DNA from: Acidimicrobiaceae bacterium
Lineage (GTDB): Bacteria; Actinomycetota; Acidimicrobiia; Acidimicrobiales; Ilumatobacteraceae
DNA: 64,000 bases
NCBI GenBank assembly: GCA_947447175.1
Contig: CANFIM010000004.1
Location: 1-64,000, forward strand
Direction of reading: 5' to 3'
This document shows, in pieces, positions 32,867 to 55,616 of the stretch. The translations under genes were made by a program, and so were the position numbers. Numbering within the stretch: position 1 is the stretch's first letter; the number at the start of each line of letters is the position of its first letter. The notes under the pieces were generated by a model. The model saw only the letters and a list, made by a program, of their open reading frames with translations. It was not told the origin of the DNA and searched no databases.

Positions 32867-33946
32867 TTAATGCTGTGTGTTGCGTTTGCGACGCGCATAT
32901 CGCTCGCGAGCGTGCATTACTAATTCATCAATGAGCGCTGAGTATTCGAGGCCAGATGCCGCCCACATTTTGGGGTACATCGAAATTGGTGTGAAGCCCG
33001 GAATCGTGTTGATCTCATTACAGAGAAATCCACGACCATTTTCTTCGAAGAAGAAGTCAACTCGCGCCATGCCTTCACAGTGCAATGCCTCATACGCACG
33101 AATTGCTAGTGCTCGCACTTCGTCTGACTGTGCGGCTGTAAGTGTGGCCGGAATAGTAAGCGCTGCCGAATCGGTGACGTACTTGTCTTCGTAGTCGTAA
33201 AACTCATTGCCCGGAGTGATTTCACCGGCTACTGATGCACGAGGTAAGCGATTACCAATGACGGCAACTTCAATCTCGCGAGCCACGACTGCTTCTTCAA
33301 ACACCAACCACTCGTCGTATTCAGCAGCATGGCGAGCAGCTTGTTGAAGCTCTTCAAAATTGTGCGCTTTGGTAACGCCTACGGAAGATCCCATGTTGGC
33401 GGGCTTTACGAACATGGGAAGTCCAATTTCAAGCGCTACTGATTCCAACGAAGAAGGCGACACGGCATCTTCGCGCAACGTGATGTGCCGCACCTGAGGA
33501 ATACCCGATTGAGCAAAAACTGTTTTTGCAACGCCCTTGTCCATGGCAACTGCGCTAGCAAGCACGCCACTGCCGACATATGGCAGATCAAGTAATTCCA
33601 AAAGACCTTGCACAGTGCCGTCCTCGCCGAGTGGACCGTGAATTAATGGCATCACCACCACGTCACTTGACTGTGCAAGTGCGTTAATGGCTGACGGAGA
33701 CGACGATGCTCCAGTTGCTTCAAGATGGTCGGGGAGAGTGGCAGGGTCGGTGCCTCCGGAGGCAAGTTGGGGTAATTGCGGTGAATGCCATTGTCCATTG
33801 CGGTCGATAGCAATGGGTACCGTGCGATATTTCTGTGGGTCTGCAGCACGGAGAACGTGCGCCGCAGTCACGCAACTCACGTCGTGTTCGGCAGATTGAC
33901 CGCCAAAAAGAACCACGAGAGTGCTGCGTGCGCCGGTGGTGTCCAT
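32867..33946 (-). CDS. ddl: D-alanine--D-alanine ligase
   Basis: VLFGGQSAEHDVSCVTAAHVL, ATP-grasp motifs, FLCNEINTIPGFTPISMYPKMWAASG. Confidence 0.95.
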   Translation of the reverse strand: MDTTGARSTLVVLFGGQSAEHDVSCVTAAHVLRAADPQKYRTVPIAIDRNGQWHSPQLPQLASGGTDPATLPDHLEATGASSSPSAINALAQSSDVVVMPLIHGPLGEDGTVQGLLELLDLPYVGSGVLASAVAMDKGVAKTVFAQSGIPQVRHITLREDAVSPSSLESVALEIGLPMFVKPANMGSSVGVTKAHNFEELQQAARHAAEYDEWLVFEEAVVAREIEVAVIGNRLPRASVAGEITPGNEFYDYEDKYVTDSAALTIPATLTAAQSDEVRALAIRAYEALHCEGMARVDFFFEENGRGFLCNEINTIPGFTPISMYPKMWAASGLEYSALIDELVMHARERYARRKRNTQH

Positions 33947-33979
33947 CGATTAGACGGTACTCGCCACTAGGGTCGAGAC

Positions 33980-35296
33980 ATGCGCATCGAGGCCTCGAAT
34001 GTTGCGCGAATCACATCTGGGCGCCTTGTTGGCGCGGATTGTGTCGCTCACGGAATAGCTTTCGACAGCCGTGTTCTCATCAGTGGGCAAGCATTTGCAG
34101 CCATCGTGGCTGATGCCGACGGACATGACTATCTCGAGCATGCCCACCGCGCTGGAGCCACGTTTGCAATCGTGCATCGTGGTCGGGCTGTTGATTTCAT
34201 TCCATGCGTAGAAGTGGACGACACACTTGCTGCGTTAGCCCTACTGGCTACAGAACTTGTAGCCAACCTGCCTGCATTTGCATCGAAACGCATTATTGGA
34301 ATCACCGGATCAGCGGGAAAAACAAGCACCAAAGATTTGGTGGCTGCAGTGTTGGAAGCGGGATTTTCGCATTCGCACGCACCGGTTGGCTCGTTCAATA
34401 ACGACATCGGTGTACCCATCACAATTCTGAATGCACCCGATGATTGTGATGCCTTGGTCCTGGAAATGGGCATGCGTGGGTTCGGCGAAATTGAACGCCT
34501 GTGCAGTATTGCTCAACCCTCAATCGGTGTTCTTACAAATATCGGTGATGCTCACGGCGAGCGAGTGGGTGGACGAGAAGGCGTTGCCCGCGCAAAGTTT
34601 GAGTTGCTTGGTTCGTTGCCTGAAGATGGTGTCGCAGTGCTGAACGGCGACGACGAAGAAATTACAAAGCGCCGCTCGAATGTGTATTCGTCAATCAGCA
34701 CCTATGGGTCGTCAGTGGGTGCAGATATTCGATGGAGTGTGTTGAATACGGACTCTGAGGGACATATCACTGCGTCCTTCGTGTACGACGGTGAAACTGC
34801 GAGCGGAACAGTGCCATTTCCTGGCGAACACATGGTGGCAAATGCCGCCGCAGCTGTTGCCGTTGGTATCGCTTGCGGCATGACATTAGAAACGTGTGTT
34901 TCGGCGCTGGGGCGTGCATCAAAACAACCTGGTCGCATGATGTGGCGAACATCAGTCAATGGACTGCGCATCTTGGATGATTCGTACAACGCAAATACCT
35001 TGTCAATGATGGCTGCATTGCATGTCATTGCGCACAGTGATGGGCATCGCATTGCAGTACTTGGTGCGATGGCCGAAATTCCTGATGCAGAGGCAAGCCA
35101 TCAATTGGTTGCTGACATCGCGCGAGATCTGGGCATCACCGTGCTGGCGTGCGAGACAGATTTGTATGGCGTGCCGTCAATGACTGTTGAAGAGGTTGTT
35201 GTGCAGGTGAAACAACAACGTCCAAACGCGGTTTTGGTGAAAGGCTCACGAGTAGCCGCCACCGAACGAGTCGTTGAAGCGTTGCTTATTGGGTAG
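33980..35296 (+). CDS. murF: UDP-N-acetylmuramoyl-tripeptide--D-alanyl-D-alanine ligase
   Basis: IIGITGSAGKTSTKDLVAAVLE, SFNNDIGVPITILN, LDDSYNANTLSMMAAL. Confidence 0.95.
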   Translation: MRIEASNVARITSGRLVGADCVAHGIAFDSRVLISGQAFAAIVADADGHDYLEHAHRAGATFAIVHRGRAVDFIPCVEVDDTLAALALLATELVANLPAFASKRIIGITGSAGKTSTKDLVAAVLEAGFSHSHAPVGSFNNDIGVPITILNAPDDCDALVLEMGMRGFGEIERLCSIAQPSIGVLTNIGDAHGERVGGREGVARAKFELLGSLPEDGVAVLNGDDEEITKRRSNVYSSISTYGSSVGADIRWSVLNTDSEGHITASFVYDGETASGTVPFPGEHMVANAAAAVAVGIACGMTLETCVSALGRASKQPGRMMWRTSVNGLRILDDSYNANTLSMMAALHVIAHSDGHRIAVLGAMAEIPDAEASHQLVADIARDLGITVLACETDLYGVPSMTVEEVVVQVKQQRPNAVLVKGSRVAATERVVEALLIG

Positions 35297-47815: not shown

Positions 47816-48870
47816 TCCCGCTCGCGTGAGTTCCTAATTCCCACTGATACAGGTTGACCAGCAGCAAGCTGACCACATGCGGCTGCAATTTCGGTTCCGC
47901 GATTTTGTCGCACCGTTGCATTGACTCCGAGGTCGCGCAACAACCGCTGAAAAGCTGCAACGCGCGCTGGGGAACTACCCACGGTGGGCCATCCGGGTGT
48001 GGGGTTGAGTGGAATGAGATTCACATGTGCTGCAGGGGAGAGATCAAGGCATAGCCCCGCTAGTTCTCGTGCGTCACGGTCAGTGTCGTTTACTCCGCTA
48101 ATGAGCGCCCATTCGAAAGTAACCCGTCGACGCTTCTCAAAGAGATAGGTGCGGCACGTGTCCATGAGATCTTCAAGGGGGTACCGGGTGTTGATTGGTA
48201 CAAGTTCGTTGCGCAGTTCATTACGTGCCGCATGAAGTGACACTGCCAAGTTCACGGGAAGTGGGCGCTTAGTGAGGGTTTTGATGCCCGGAATAATTCC
48301 CACTGTTGAGATGGTGAGGTGACGGGCCGAGATGCCAATGTCTTCGTGCAGTCGTTCCACTGCTCCCCACACGGCCTCTTCATTTGCAAGTGGCTCACCC
48401 ATCCCCATGAACACGATGTTGTCAATGCGGCGGTCACGTAGGGCGGCCTCACGTGCAGATCGCACTACTTGTTCAACAATTTCACCGGTGGAAAGATGAC
48501 GGTTAAAGCCAGCTTGTCCGGTAGCGCAAAATCCGCATGCCATTGCGCAGCCAGCTTGAGTGCTGACGCACACCGTTGCGCGATCGTCGTAGTACATGAG
48601 CACGGTTTCAATGGGGTGTTGACCCTCAAGAAGATGCCAAAGAAACTTCACCGTGTCGCCGTCTTCGCTTGTTTCGCGACGAATCTCAATCAGCGACTCG
48701 GGCAATTCGGATTCAATACGTGTACGAAGTGCCGCAGGCAAGTTGCTGATGTCGATTGGGCGTTTGAAATGTGTGTACAGGCCAGTCCACAATTGGTCGA
48801 GTCGGTACTTCGGTTCGCCTTCAAGAATTGTTGCTATTTCGTCACGCGTGGGGTCGTAGAGAGATTTCAC
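47812..48870 (-). CDS. rlmN: 23S rRNA (adenine2503-C2)-methyltransferase RlmN
   Basis: CVSTQAGCAMACGFCATGQAGFNRHLSTGEIVEQV, VNLAVSLHAARNELRNELVPIN. Confidence 0.95.
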   Translation of the reverse strand: MKSLYDPTRDEIATILEGEPKYRLDQLWTGLYTHFKRPIDISNLPAALRTRIESELPESLIEIRRETSEDGDTVKFLWHLLEGQHPIETVLMYYDDRATVCVSTQAGCAMACGFCATGQAGFNRHLSTGEIVEQVVRSAREAALRDRRIDNIVFMGMGEPLANEEAVWGAVERLHEDIGISARHLTISTVGIIPGIKTLTKRPLPVNLAVSLHAARNELRNELVPINTRYPLEDLMDTCRTYLFEKRRRVTFEWALISGVNDTDRDARELAGLCLDLSPAAHVNLIPLNPTPGWPTVGSSPARVAAFQRLLRDLGVNATVRQNRGTEIAAACGQLAAGQPVSVGIRNSRERD

Positions 48871-49799
48871 GTTGAGGCTCCTGCAGCAATGTCGCCAACA
48901 AATGCATGCTCGCCATGATGTGCACTGAAACCCAAAGAGTTGTACACGGAAATGGCTGCTGCATTATCAGCATCGACATACAGCATTGCATTAGTGATGC
49001 CATGAGATGCGAGATGGTGAAGTCCGGCAAGTGTCATCTTGCGCCCCGCTCCATGTCCTGAATAAGCAGGATTCATTGCAATCACATAGATCTCGCCCAT
49101 AGGCATTTGGTGATCAGTATGCACCTTTGTCCAGCAGAAGCCAGCAAGTTCATTGTTCTGCCAGTGCATGCGGAATCCGTCTGCGTCAAACCACGGCTCA
49201 TGTTCGCGCGAAGCAATGGTGTGATGTGTCCAGCCACCTTGTTCGGGGTGCGCTGCAAAGGCTGCGTTATTGACCGCTAGCCACGCATCTTCATCAACGC
49301 CCACCCGAAACGGCACAGTTTCAAAATCTTTGATGGAGTCCACTTCGTCAACAGTGAGGGGCAGAGTGCGTCGCATCTGCAAAAGTTGGCGCCCCGGTTG
49401 AAGCCCGGCTTCTGCAGCGAGTTGGCGGTGAATGTTGTTGGGTTCAAAAACCCACCAGTGCACATGGCCTCCACCCTCGCTTGCCACAATCTGTAACGCT
49501 TCGCGCAACAGTTCAGGCGCAAGTTCCAATGTGTCGTAACGGTGGTGGGGGTGAACAATGAGATCAAGGGACCACGATTCGTTGCCGCGAGACACTTGGC
49601 AATAAGCGAGAATGTGTTTGTGCTCGTCGCTGCGAGCCAAGATTCCGGCAAAGCCCTGCCTGCCGCCTTCGCGGAGGTCAAGCCAGAGATGGTCGTTCAA
49701 TGGACGTGCGCCATCGGCACGCCACGCGGATTGGATGAGTTCGGACACCTCATCCAATGCTGCGGCATCCATTTGTCGCCGAATTTCGAAGGAACGCAC
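48867..49799 (-). CDS. mshD: Mycothiol synthase (GNAT) MshD-like
   Basis: Two GNAT-like halves; HTDHQMPMGEIYVIAMNPAYSGHGAGRKMTLAGLHHLASHG; GTG start preceded by TACCCT-N6. Confidence 0.82.
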   Translation of the reverse strand: MRSFEIRRQMDAAALDEVSELIQSAWRADGARPLNDHLWLDLREGGRQGFAGILARSDEHKHILAYCQVSRGNESWSLDLIVHPHHRYDTLELAPELLREALQIVASEGGGHVHWWVFEPNNIHRQLAAEAGLQPGRQLLQMRRTLPLTVDEVDSIKDFETVPFRVGVDEDAWLAVNNAAFAAHPEQGGWTHHTIASREHEPWFDADGFRMHWQNNELAGFCWTKVHTDHQMPMGEIYVIAMNPAYSGHGAGRKMTLAGLHHLASHGITNAMLYVDADNAAAISVYNSLGFSAHHGEHAFVGDIAAGAST

Positions 49800-49821
49800 G
49801 TGGTCAGGGTACCTTCGGGGC

Positions 49822-50499
49822 ATGGGAAAGCCGAGAACACCAGCGGGCCGCGCCAAGGAAGTTGCTCTTCGCTTGGCCGAGTTATATCCGGGCGCAGAAT
49901 GCGAATTGACTCATTCGAATGCGTATGAATTGCTGGCCGCCACAATTCTGTCGGCCCAGTGCACTGATGTTCGGGTGAACATGGTGACACCAGAGCTCTT
50001 CAAGAAGTACCCCACGCCTCAGGCGCTTGCCAATGCAAACCCTGCTGAGTTGGAAACAATTATTCGCTCCACTGGCTTTTTCCAAACGAAGGCAAAGAAC
50101 CTCATTGGTATGGGTCGCAATGTGATGGAGCGCTTCAACGGCGAAATCCCTAGCGCTCTTGAGGATCTCGTTACATTGCCTGGTGTGGGCCGTAAAACAG
50201 GAAACGTGTTACGCAGCGTTGTGTTTGATTTGCCTGGTCTTGCAGTTGATACACACGTTGGGCGACTTTCCCGCAAACTTGGTCTCACCACTGAAGACGA
50301 CCCTGTGAAGGTGGAAAAAGTTCTCAATGCATTCATCGAGCCACCTGAATGGGGTCGCTTTAGTTTGCGACTCATTCTTCATGGTCGTCGTGTGTGTGAT
50401 GCAAAGAAGCCGAAGTGCGACATCTGTGAACTGGAAGACATCTGCCCTTCGTCGAATATGCCTTCACAGACAAAGCCCAAATCGGCGAAGCCGAAATAG
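49822..50499 (+). CDS. nth: Endonuclease III
   Basis: LAATILSAQCTDVRVNMVTPELFKKYPT, LPGVGRKTGNVLRSVVFDLPGLAVDTHVGRLSRKLG, CX6CX2CX5C Fe-S motif. Confidence 0.95.
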   Translation: MGKPRTPAGRAKEVALRLAELYPGAECELTHSNAYELLAATILSAQCTDVRVNMVTPELFKKYPTPQALANANPAELETIIRSTGFFQTKAKNLIGMGRNVMERFNGEIPSALEDLVTLPGVGRKTGNVLRSVVFDLPGLAVDTHVGRLSRKLGLTTEDDPVKVEKVLNAFIEPPEWGRFSLRLILHGRRVCDAKKPKCDICELEDICPSSNMPSQTKPKSAKPK

Positions 50500-54574: not shown

Positions 54575-55201
54575 CTACAGCGCTTCTAAAGCCGTTGACA
54601 GAGCGTGTTGGCACGCTTCGCGCGCACCAACAACAATGAAATGGTCAACGTTCGGTATCTCGATGACCGAGGTGTTTATCCAATCTTTGGTGGCGTCACG
54701 TAACACGGATGGCACGGTGAACTGATCGTGTTCGGGCGCGATCAAAATTTTTGGTCGTGAACTCTGTGCAGAGATTGGTGTGGAAGTCATGAGGGGCAGT
54801 GGAGGCGCAACCGCTATCCACGCTGCAATCCAAGGATTGGTGACGTTCAGAGCCACCATGGAACCAAATGAATAGCCACTCATGATGATGGGGCACTCTG
54901 GTTCAATCATGTCGGCAAGTTCGCACGCAGCTGCTAAATCGAGACGCTCAGAATCGCCGTCGTCGTATGTGCCCCCTGAGTTATTCACGCCGCGAAAGTC
55001 AACGGCAATTGAGTGGCAATTCAGATTTGCTGCGGCCCCTTGTAGGGCGCGTACAACGGGATTGAATCTGTCGCCACCGTGCAAAGGGTGAGGATGCCCA
55101 ATAATCACCACTGCTCGGGCTGGAAATGCGCTGGTACGTACAACATCAGCCTCTATTTGGATGCCATCAATTGTGTCGAGATAAACGGTTTCCACTCCCA
55201 T
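54575..55201 (-). CDS. Alpha/beta hydrolase
   Basis: VVIIGHPHPLHGGDRFNPVVRAL, IMSGYSFGSMVALNV nucleophile elbow. Confidence 0.85.
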   Translation of the reverse strand: MGVETVYLDTIDGIQIEADVVRTSAFPARAVVIIGHPHPLHGGDRFNPVVRALQGAAANLNCHSIAVDFRGVNNSGGTYDDGDSERLDLAAACELADMIEPECPIIMSGYSFGSMVALNVTNPWIAAWIAVAPPLPLMTSTPISAQSSRPKILIAPEHDQFTVPSVLRDATKDWINTSVIEIPNVDHFIVVGAREACQHALSTALEAL

Positions 55202-55226
55202 GGTGCAAGACGGTACCGTGAATGCG

Positions 55227-55616
55227 GTGAGCGCAGATGCAAATAACCCCACCAATGCCCTTCAGGGTCGAATCATCGTGGCCTCTGCCCAAGAACTTGC
55301 TGCTGTGAAGTACAACGCCGACGGATTGGTGCCAGCGATTGCGCAATGTGTGGACACGGGCGACATTCTCATGATGGCCTGGATGAACGCGGAATCTTTA
55401 TCGATGACCTTTGCAGAGGGCCGAATGGTCTATTACAGCCGCAGCCGTTCAGAACTGTGGCGCAAGGGCGACACCAGTGGTGATCGCCAATTTGTTCGCG
55501 AGGCGTATTACGACTGTGATGGCGACACTTTGTTGTTCAAAGTTGAGCAAGAAGGTAAAGGTGCATGCCACACCGGAGAGCGTTCTTGCTTTTATCGCGC
55601 TTTCGGAGAGCAATAG
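55227..55616 (+). CDS. hisI: Phosphoribosyl-AMP cyclohydrolase
   Basis: MMAWMNAESLSMTFAEGRMVYYSRSRSELWRKGDTSG, CDGDTLLFKVEQEGKGACHTGERSCFYR; GTG start preceded by TACCGT-N7. Confidence 0.93.
   Translation: MSADANNPTNALQGRIIVASAQELAAVKYNADGLVPAIAQCVDTGDILMMAWMNAESLSMTFAEGRMVYYSRSRSELWRKGDTSGDRQFVREAYYDCDGDTLLFKVEQEGKGACHTGERSCFYRAFGEQ

Follow-up and report, generated by a model that had tools for sequence, protein, structure and literature searches.

In E. coli and Salmonella, the bidirectional promoters described by Warman and Grainger carry a pseudo-symmetric -10 element that is read on both strands (PMC12825309, PMC10268837), and are defined by divergent transcription starts that lie 7-25 bp apart. 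In E. coli promoters with a shared symmetric -10, the opposing starts are preferentially 18, 10 or 23 bp apart (PMC12825309). The leaderless promoters of actinobacteria have been described separately and place a TANNNT hexamer about 6 nt before the ATG or GTG start codon, as reported in the available portions of PMC3898074, PMC6448022 (M. smegmatis) and PMC3160421 (a survey of leaderless genes). According to the accessible part of PMC3898074, this hexamer occurs in M. tuberculosis with no conserved -35 element and about one quarter of the mRNAs are leaderless; the same part includes the divergent genes prpD and Rv1129c, whose transcripts are both leaderless by 5'-end mapping. Also in M. tuberculosis, the -10 and -35 motifs of the divergent genes lysG and lysE overlap at a palindrome, and a second lysE promoter yields a leaderless transcript (PMC5648196).

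The region between mshD and nth, which we analyzed in a 64,000-nt stretch of DNA from an Acidimicrobiaceae bacterium (the window in the following), resembles each of these systems in part. Its transcription starts, as inferred from the sequence, are 23 bp apart, which would fall within the Warman/Grainger range and corresponds to the 23-bp class of E. coli (PMC12825309), and the -10 hexamers TACCTT (plus strand) and TACCCT (minus strand) overlap symmetrically on one TA in all 28 same-genus loci compared. As in actinobacterial leaderless promoters, a TANNNT motif is present at -10 distance from the start codon on both sides, with spacers of 6 nt in the window and of 6 or 7 nt in the same-genus loci. 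In contrast to the Warman/Grainger promoters, both inferred starts fall on start codons, and the -10 element together with two 6-nt spacers makes up the whole intergenic region; no discussion of transcription that begins at the start codon itself was found in the available parts of PMC12825309 and PMC10268837. Likewise, the accessible portions of PMC3898074, PMC6448022 and PMC3160421 report no hexamer common to two leaderless genes, and prpD/Rv1129c differs from mshD/nth in that no shared -10 is reported for it in the available text of PMC3898074. The lysG/lysE pair differs in its gap of 108 bp, in being controlled by a regulator and in that its overlapping promoters do not yield leaderless transcripts in both directions (PMC5648196). 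Bidirectional -10 symmetry and leaderless translation are both known, while a description of their pairing was not found: in the open-licence literature, searches that combined leaderless with bidirectional or divergent promoters returned no account of a shared -10 whose two starts both fall on start codons.

Layout of the mshD/nth intergenic region

The genes mshD (mycothiol synthase, 48867..49799, minus strand; TIGR03448, 237 bits against a cut-off of 163) and nth (endonuclease III, 49822..50499, plus strand; TIGR01083, 244 bits against a cut-off of 212) are divergent and separated by 22 bp, with rlmN beyond mshD and hisC downstream of nth. Positions 49797-49824 read CAC GTGGTC AGGGTACCTT CGGGGC ATG. 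The candidate shared bidirectional -10 element AGGGTACCTT (49806..49815), with the core palindrome GGTACC, comprises the nth hexamer TACCTT (49810..49815, plus strand), 6 nt from the ATG at 49822-49824, and the mshD hexamer TACCCT (49806..49811, minus strand), 6 nt from the GTG at 49799-49797, and the TA at 49810-49811 is common to both. The nth spacer CGGGGC (49816..49821, plus strand) separates its -10 from an inferred transcription start at 49822, the A of the ATG, while the mshD spacer (49800..49805, GACCAC in minus-strand letters) leads to an inferred start at 49799, the G of the GTG, on the opposite strand and at a distance of 23 bp from the first. The earlier note had read 49797-49824 in the same way, with N6 spacers in the window, a shared TA and a 22-bp gap, and was exact in each of these points. 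No Rfam match to a structured RNA was obtained for the mshD/nth region.

In the window the mshD frame is open upstream as far as an ATG at 49823 that overlaps the nth start. This ATG was rejected as the start of mshD because several relatives (e.g. L007, L008, L011, L013, L014 and L019) carry stops in the mshD frame ahead of the GTG or ATG at the aligned position, and the start was therefore assigned to the GTG (ATG in some relatives) found there. The nth start aligns in the 28 same-genus loci as either ATG or GTG, and all relatives keep it.

The two starts fit a signal that extends across the genome. On a 557-kb contig of the same genus, 13.1% of the called starts have a TANNNT at a distance of exactly 6 nt. 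The share is 4% for 7 nt and 0% for 5 nt, and the background is about 0.4%. In the aligned sites, position -1 is preferentially C or T and the start itself A or G, a preference to which the mshD/nth element conforms, and no -35 is visible. By this motif count the genus appears rich in leaderless genes, in agreement with the available parts of the M. tuberculosis study (PMC3898074) and of the leaderless-gene survey (PMC3160421).

Based on these features, the 22-bp gap is very probably one minimal bidirectional promoter of the housekeeping sigma factor from which both mRNAs are made leaderless. The near-palindrome AGGGTACCTT could be read as a TANNNT -10 from either strand, with one TA used in both cases. 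Depending on the orientation in which it binds, polymerase would start either with the first base of the nth ATG (A) or with that of the mshD GTG (G), two positions that lie 23 bp apart on opposite strands. Both mRNAs would begin with the start codon and be translated with no leader, and at ordinary low activity the two directions would be expected to fire independently. The gene identities, the sequence and its conservation, the genome-wide leaderless signal and the recurrence of the geometry were all observed directly, and it is from these that we infer the use of both starts by the housekeeping sigma factor; the conservation, the genome-wide signal and the recurrence support well what the earlier note had proposed, namely two back-to-back leaderless promoters on one palindrome.

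Conservation and history of the shared element

The earlier note had suggested an alignment of the gap across relatives as a check. We aligned 28 same-genus loci (the relatives are labelled freshwater Ilumatobacteraceae of the Acidimicrobiales, some of them acIV) centred on the element and counted the changes per column on the nth tree; since these loci are related to one another, they do not represent 28 independent tests. The sequence AGGGTACC[C/T]T was present in 28/28, and nine of the ten element columns had zero changes, while the tenth (C or T) had two. The spacer columns had 1-9 changes each (1-6 on the nth side) in addition to indels. Identity in this set reaches down to approximately 75% for nth and 54% for mshD. 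The outer bases A 49806 and T 49815 were kept in all 28 species, and the spacers were 6 or 7 nt in every locus, never 5 or 8, with N6 in 20 and N7 in eight loci on the nth side and N6 in 19 and N7 in nine on the mshD side. A nearly invariant element was thus what the suggested alignment revealed, and the N6 spacing on each side stands for the window. A strict N6/N6 rule had to be dropped, as only 12 of the 28 species follow it and the remainder have N7 on one or both sides. The conservation and placement of the mshD/nth element are not due to chance.

The N positions of each hexamer are nearly invariant as well, beyond what TANNNT alone demands. The one-way leaderless promoter TAGCGT, located before a small gene that follows nth, is similarly fixed where present, so that fixed N positions look ordinary for -10 elements of this genus. 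An additional protein-binding role of the mshD/nth element may nevertheless exist.

Related genomes contributed 102 loci, in 72 of which mshD and nth are divergent and each gene has a leaderless -10. The TA is shared in 32 of these 72, comprising all 26 same-genus records and six more distant ones (including L250, an AGGGTACCCT with N6/N6), and the window is a further case. Outside the genus, the non-zero offsets between the two TAs were mostly 10, 18-21, 25, 27, 31, 34-37 and 49-53, with one at 6, and sister genera have two separate leaderless -10s. In a tree of both proteins, from which L119 was omitted as a misplaced long branch, the genus forms one clade (96/97), and the shared and separate states are connected by at least six changes (gains or losses), the exact number being unsure because some other distant rows are long-branched. 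Several groups have an offset of their own: the -10s are exactly 10 bp apart in one clade (L237, L239-L242 and L245), 18 bp apart in another group (L229, L233, L234 and L236) and 25 bp apart in another clade (L208, L213, L215 and L228). This history would be one of repeated closing-up of two leaderless promoters, with the shared TA as a tolerated, workable overlap that is left.

The same geometry at other gene pairs

For the 28-base pattern CAY-N6-ANNNTANNNT-N6-RTG, the expectation is 0.18 copies per 64 kb and 4.6 copies for the 1.61-Mb genome, in which four were found. The raw count (4 vs 4.6 expected) was discarded as evidence, and the count for the genus was likewise near that of a reversed-pattern control. 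The location of the copies is more informative, as three of the four exactly occupy the gap of a divergent pair whose reading frames each exceed 200 codons. We also took a census of six contigs for divergent pairs in which each gene has a plausible start with a TANNNT at 6-8 nt, and recorded the TA-to-TA offset. Offset zero, i.e. a shared TA, was observed for seven pairs in four ortholog groups, while other offsets averaged about 0.3 each (P approximately 3e-4 on ortholog groups). When the spacers were set to 1-3 nt as a control, no shared-TA pairs were obtained. Gene starts in the census came from a simple codon-usage script that missed mshD/nth itself in G007, and the counts are therefore underestimates; the census is weak in the high-GC G038 as well as in G033 and G016, where the caller misplaces starts.

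The source genome has the same geometry between tesB and a nitroreductase gene, between the genes of an acyl-CoA dehydrogenase/SDR pair and in an inositol-phosphatase pair, in which an inositol-phosphatase family gene shares the element with an unknown gene. Across the phylum, the strict N6/N6 form is also found at xseA/ispH, coaE/yigZ and pncB/clpS, with both genes supported by family models, and N6-shared-TA-N6 was recorded for orn/dut, pncB/clpS and xseA/ispH in other Actinomycetota (L037, L270 and L272). Many pattern matches in low-GC members of the phylum were discarded, as they lie between no real genes. The arrangement had been called unusual in the earlier note, a description that survives only in part given that several other gene pairs in the genus and in other Actinomycetota use this geometry.

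A second putative shared bidirectional -10, the perfect 10-bp palindrome ACGGTACCGT (55210..55219), lies about 5 kb from the mshD/nth element. Here positions 55199-55229 read CAT GGTGCAAG ACGGTACCGT GAATGCG GTG, with spacers of 8 and 7 nt between the element and the divergent genes for an alpha/beta-hydrolase (54575-55201, minus strand; PF12697) and hisI (55227-55616, plus strand; NF000768, PF01502). The hydrolase/hisI pair sits on the same element in six other same-genus loci (L101, L103, L105, L108, L109 and L111). In G001, L104, L114, L115 and L116 a Cpn10/GroES-like gene takes the place of hisI at this element, with hisI next after it, and the G001 copy was accordingly dropped as an instance of hydrolase/hisI. 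Some species of the genus lack the ACGGTACCGT-type hydrolase element. Similarly, the shared -10 of tesB (ATAGTAGGGTCG; ATAGTAGGGT element) is kept while its divergent partner is either a methyltransferase or a nitroreductase depending on the species, as seen by comparing L042 and L043 with L044, L050, L060 and L290. Elements thus outlive partners at two loci.

Two leaderless -10s that lie 10 bp apart and serve a divergent pair (GACGGTACTCGCCACTAGGGTCG) were also observed in the window at 33944-33982 and near 232180 of G001:C10, and are kept in G000, G001 and G007.

On a slightly favourable balance, we regard shared-TA double-leaderless promoters as an end state that genome compaction has reached repeatedly in Actinomycetota. 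Leaderless genes in divergent orientation would close up until their -10s are either at least about 10 bp apart or fused on one TA, and a single 10-bp element would then be the entire regulatory region of two genes, long kept even after replacement of a partner.

Alternative explanations and implications

The earlier note had further claimed that mycothiol synthesis and endonuclease III would be mutually exclusive outputs of one DNA opening. An exclusive switch of this kind, with exclusivity itself under selection, would be in line with the fixation of the element in the genus and with the finding that opposing polymerases cannot occupy such an element together (PMC12825309, available part). 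The claim is not supported, and we consider the switch unlikely: in the same paper, basal activity was too low for the two directions to compete at any of five tested E. coli bidirectional promoters, loss of one direction gave the other no gain at basal strength, and repression of the partner was observed only after strong activation. Exclusive outputs would therefore be possible only if one side were strongly induced; nothing here points to strong induction of either the mshD or the nth side, and no activator site was seen at mshD/nth. In addition, sister genera hold mshD and nth with separate -10s, other shared elements join unrelated genes, and the differing partners at tesB and hydrolase/hisI imply that no pair-specific coupling is needed.

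The near-perfect palindrome, its nearly invariant N positions and the second GGTACC element 5 kb away would also suit an operator, in which GGTACC mainly binds a dimeric repressor or activator of both genes and the resemblance to a -10 is secondary. This is highly improbable, as the conserved letters are exactly those of two overlapping TANNNT motifs whose distance to either start codon is fixed, and as the N letters vary by gene pair (GGGTACC, CGGTACC, ATAGTAGGGT, ACACTACCGT), which argues against a common operator. An operator alone would leave both genes promoterless in the 22-bp gap, and neither MshD nor Nth is a regulator, while regulated divergons have an operator whose regulator is usually encoded by one of the partners. 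Given the weakness of TANNNT as a motif, and with coding sequence on each flank that could hold another promoter, one might suppose that only one promoter is real, the other gene being read from inside its neighbour and the second hexamer being coincidental. The retention of A 49806, T 49815 and both spacer lengths (6-7 nt) in 28/28 loci renders this very unlikely, as do the sister genera, which have wider gaps and retain a separate leaderless -10 for each gene. Finally, the compared species belong to a single genus and nearby nth codons are also partly conserved, as would be expected if coding constraint or shared ancestry were responsible and the element had no promoter function. Its position outside both frames, between spacers with 1-9 changes per column and indels, and its persistence in relatives with mshD identity as low as about 54% make this explanation scarcely credible.

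If both starts of the minimal bidirectional promoter are used, start codons, 6-nt spacers and a 10-bp element would constitute a near-smallest control region for two divergent genes, which would unite bidirectional -10 symmetry with leaderless translation, each of them described separately. The sequence signature can be checked in existing (mycobacterial) start-site maps, for example at pncB/clpS and xseA/ispH. With offsets that run from 0 over 6, 10 and 18 to higher values in a single gene pair, mshD/nth would provide a natural series on polymerase interference in relation to promoter spacing.
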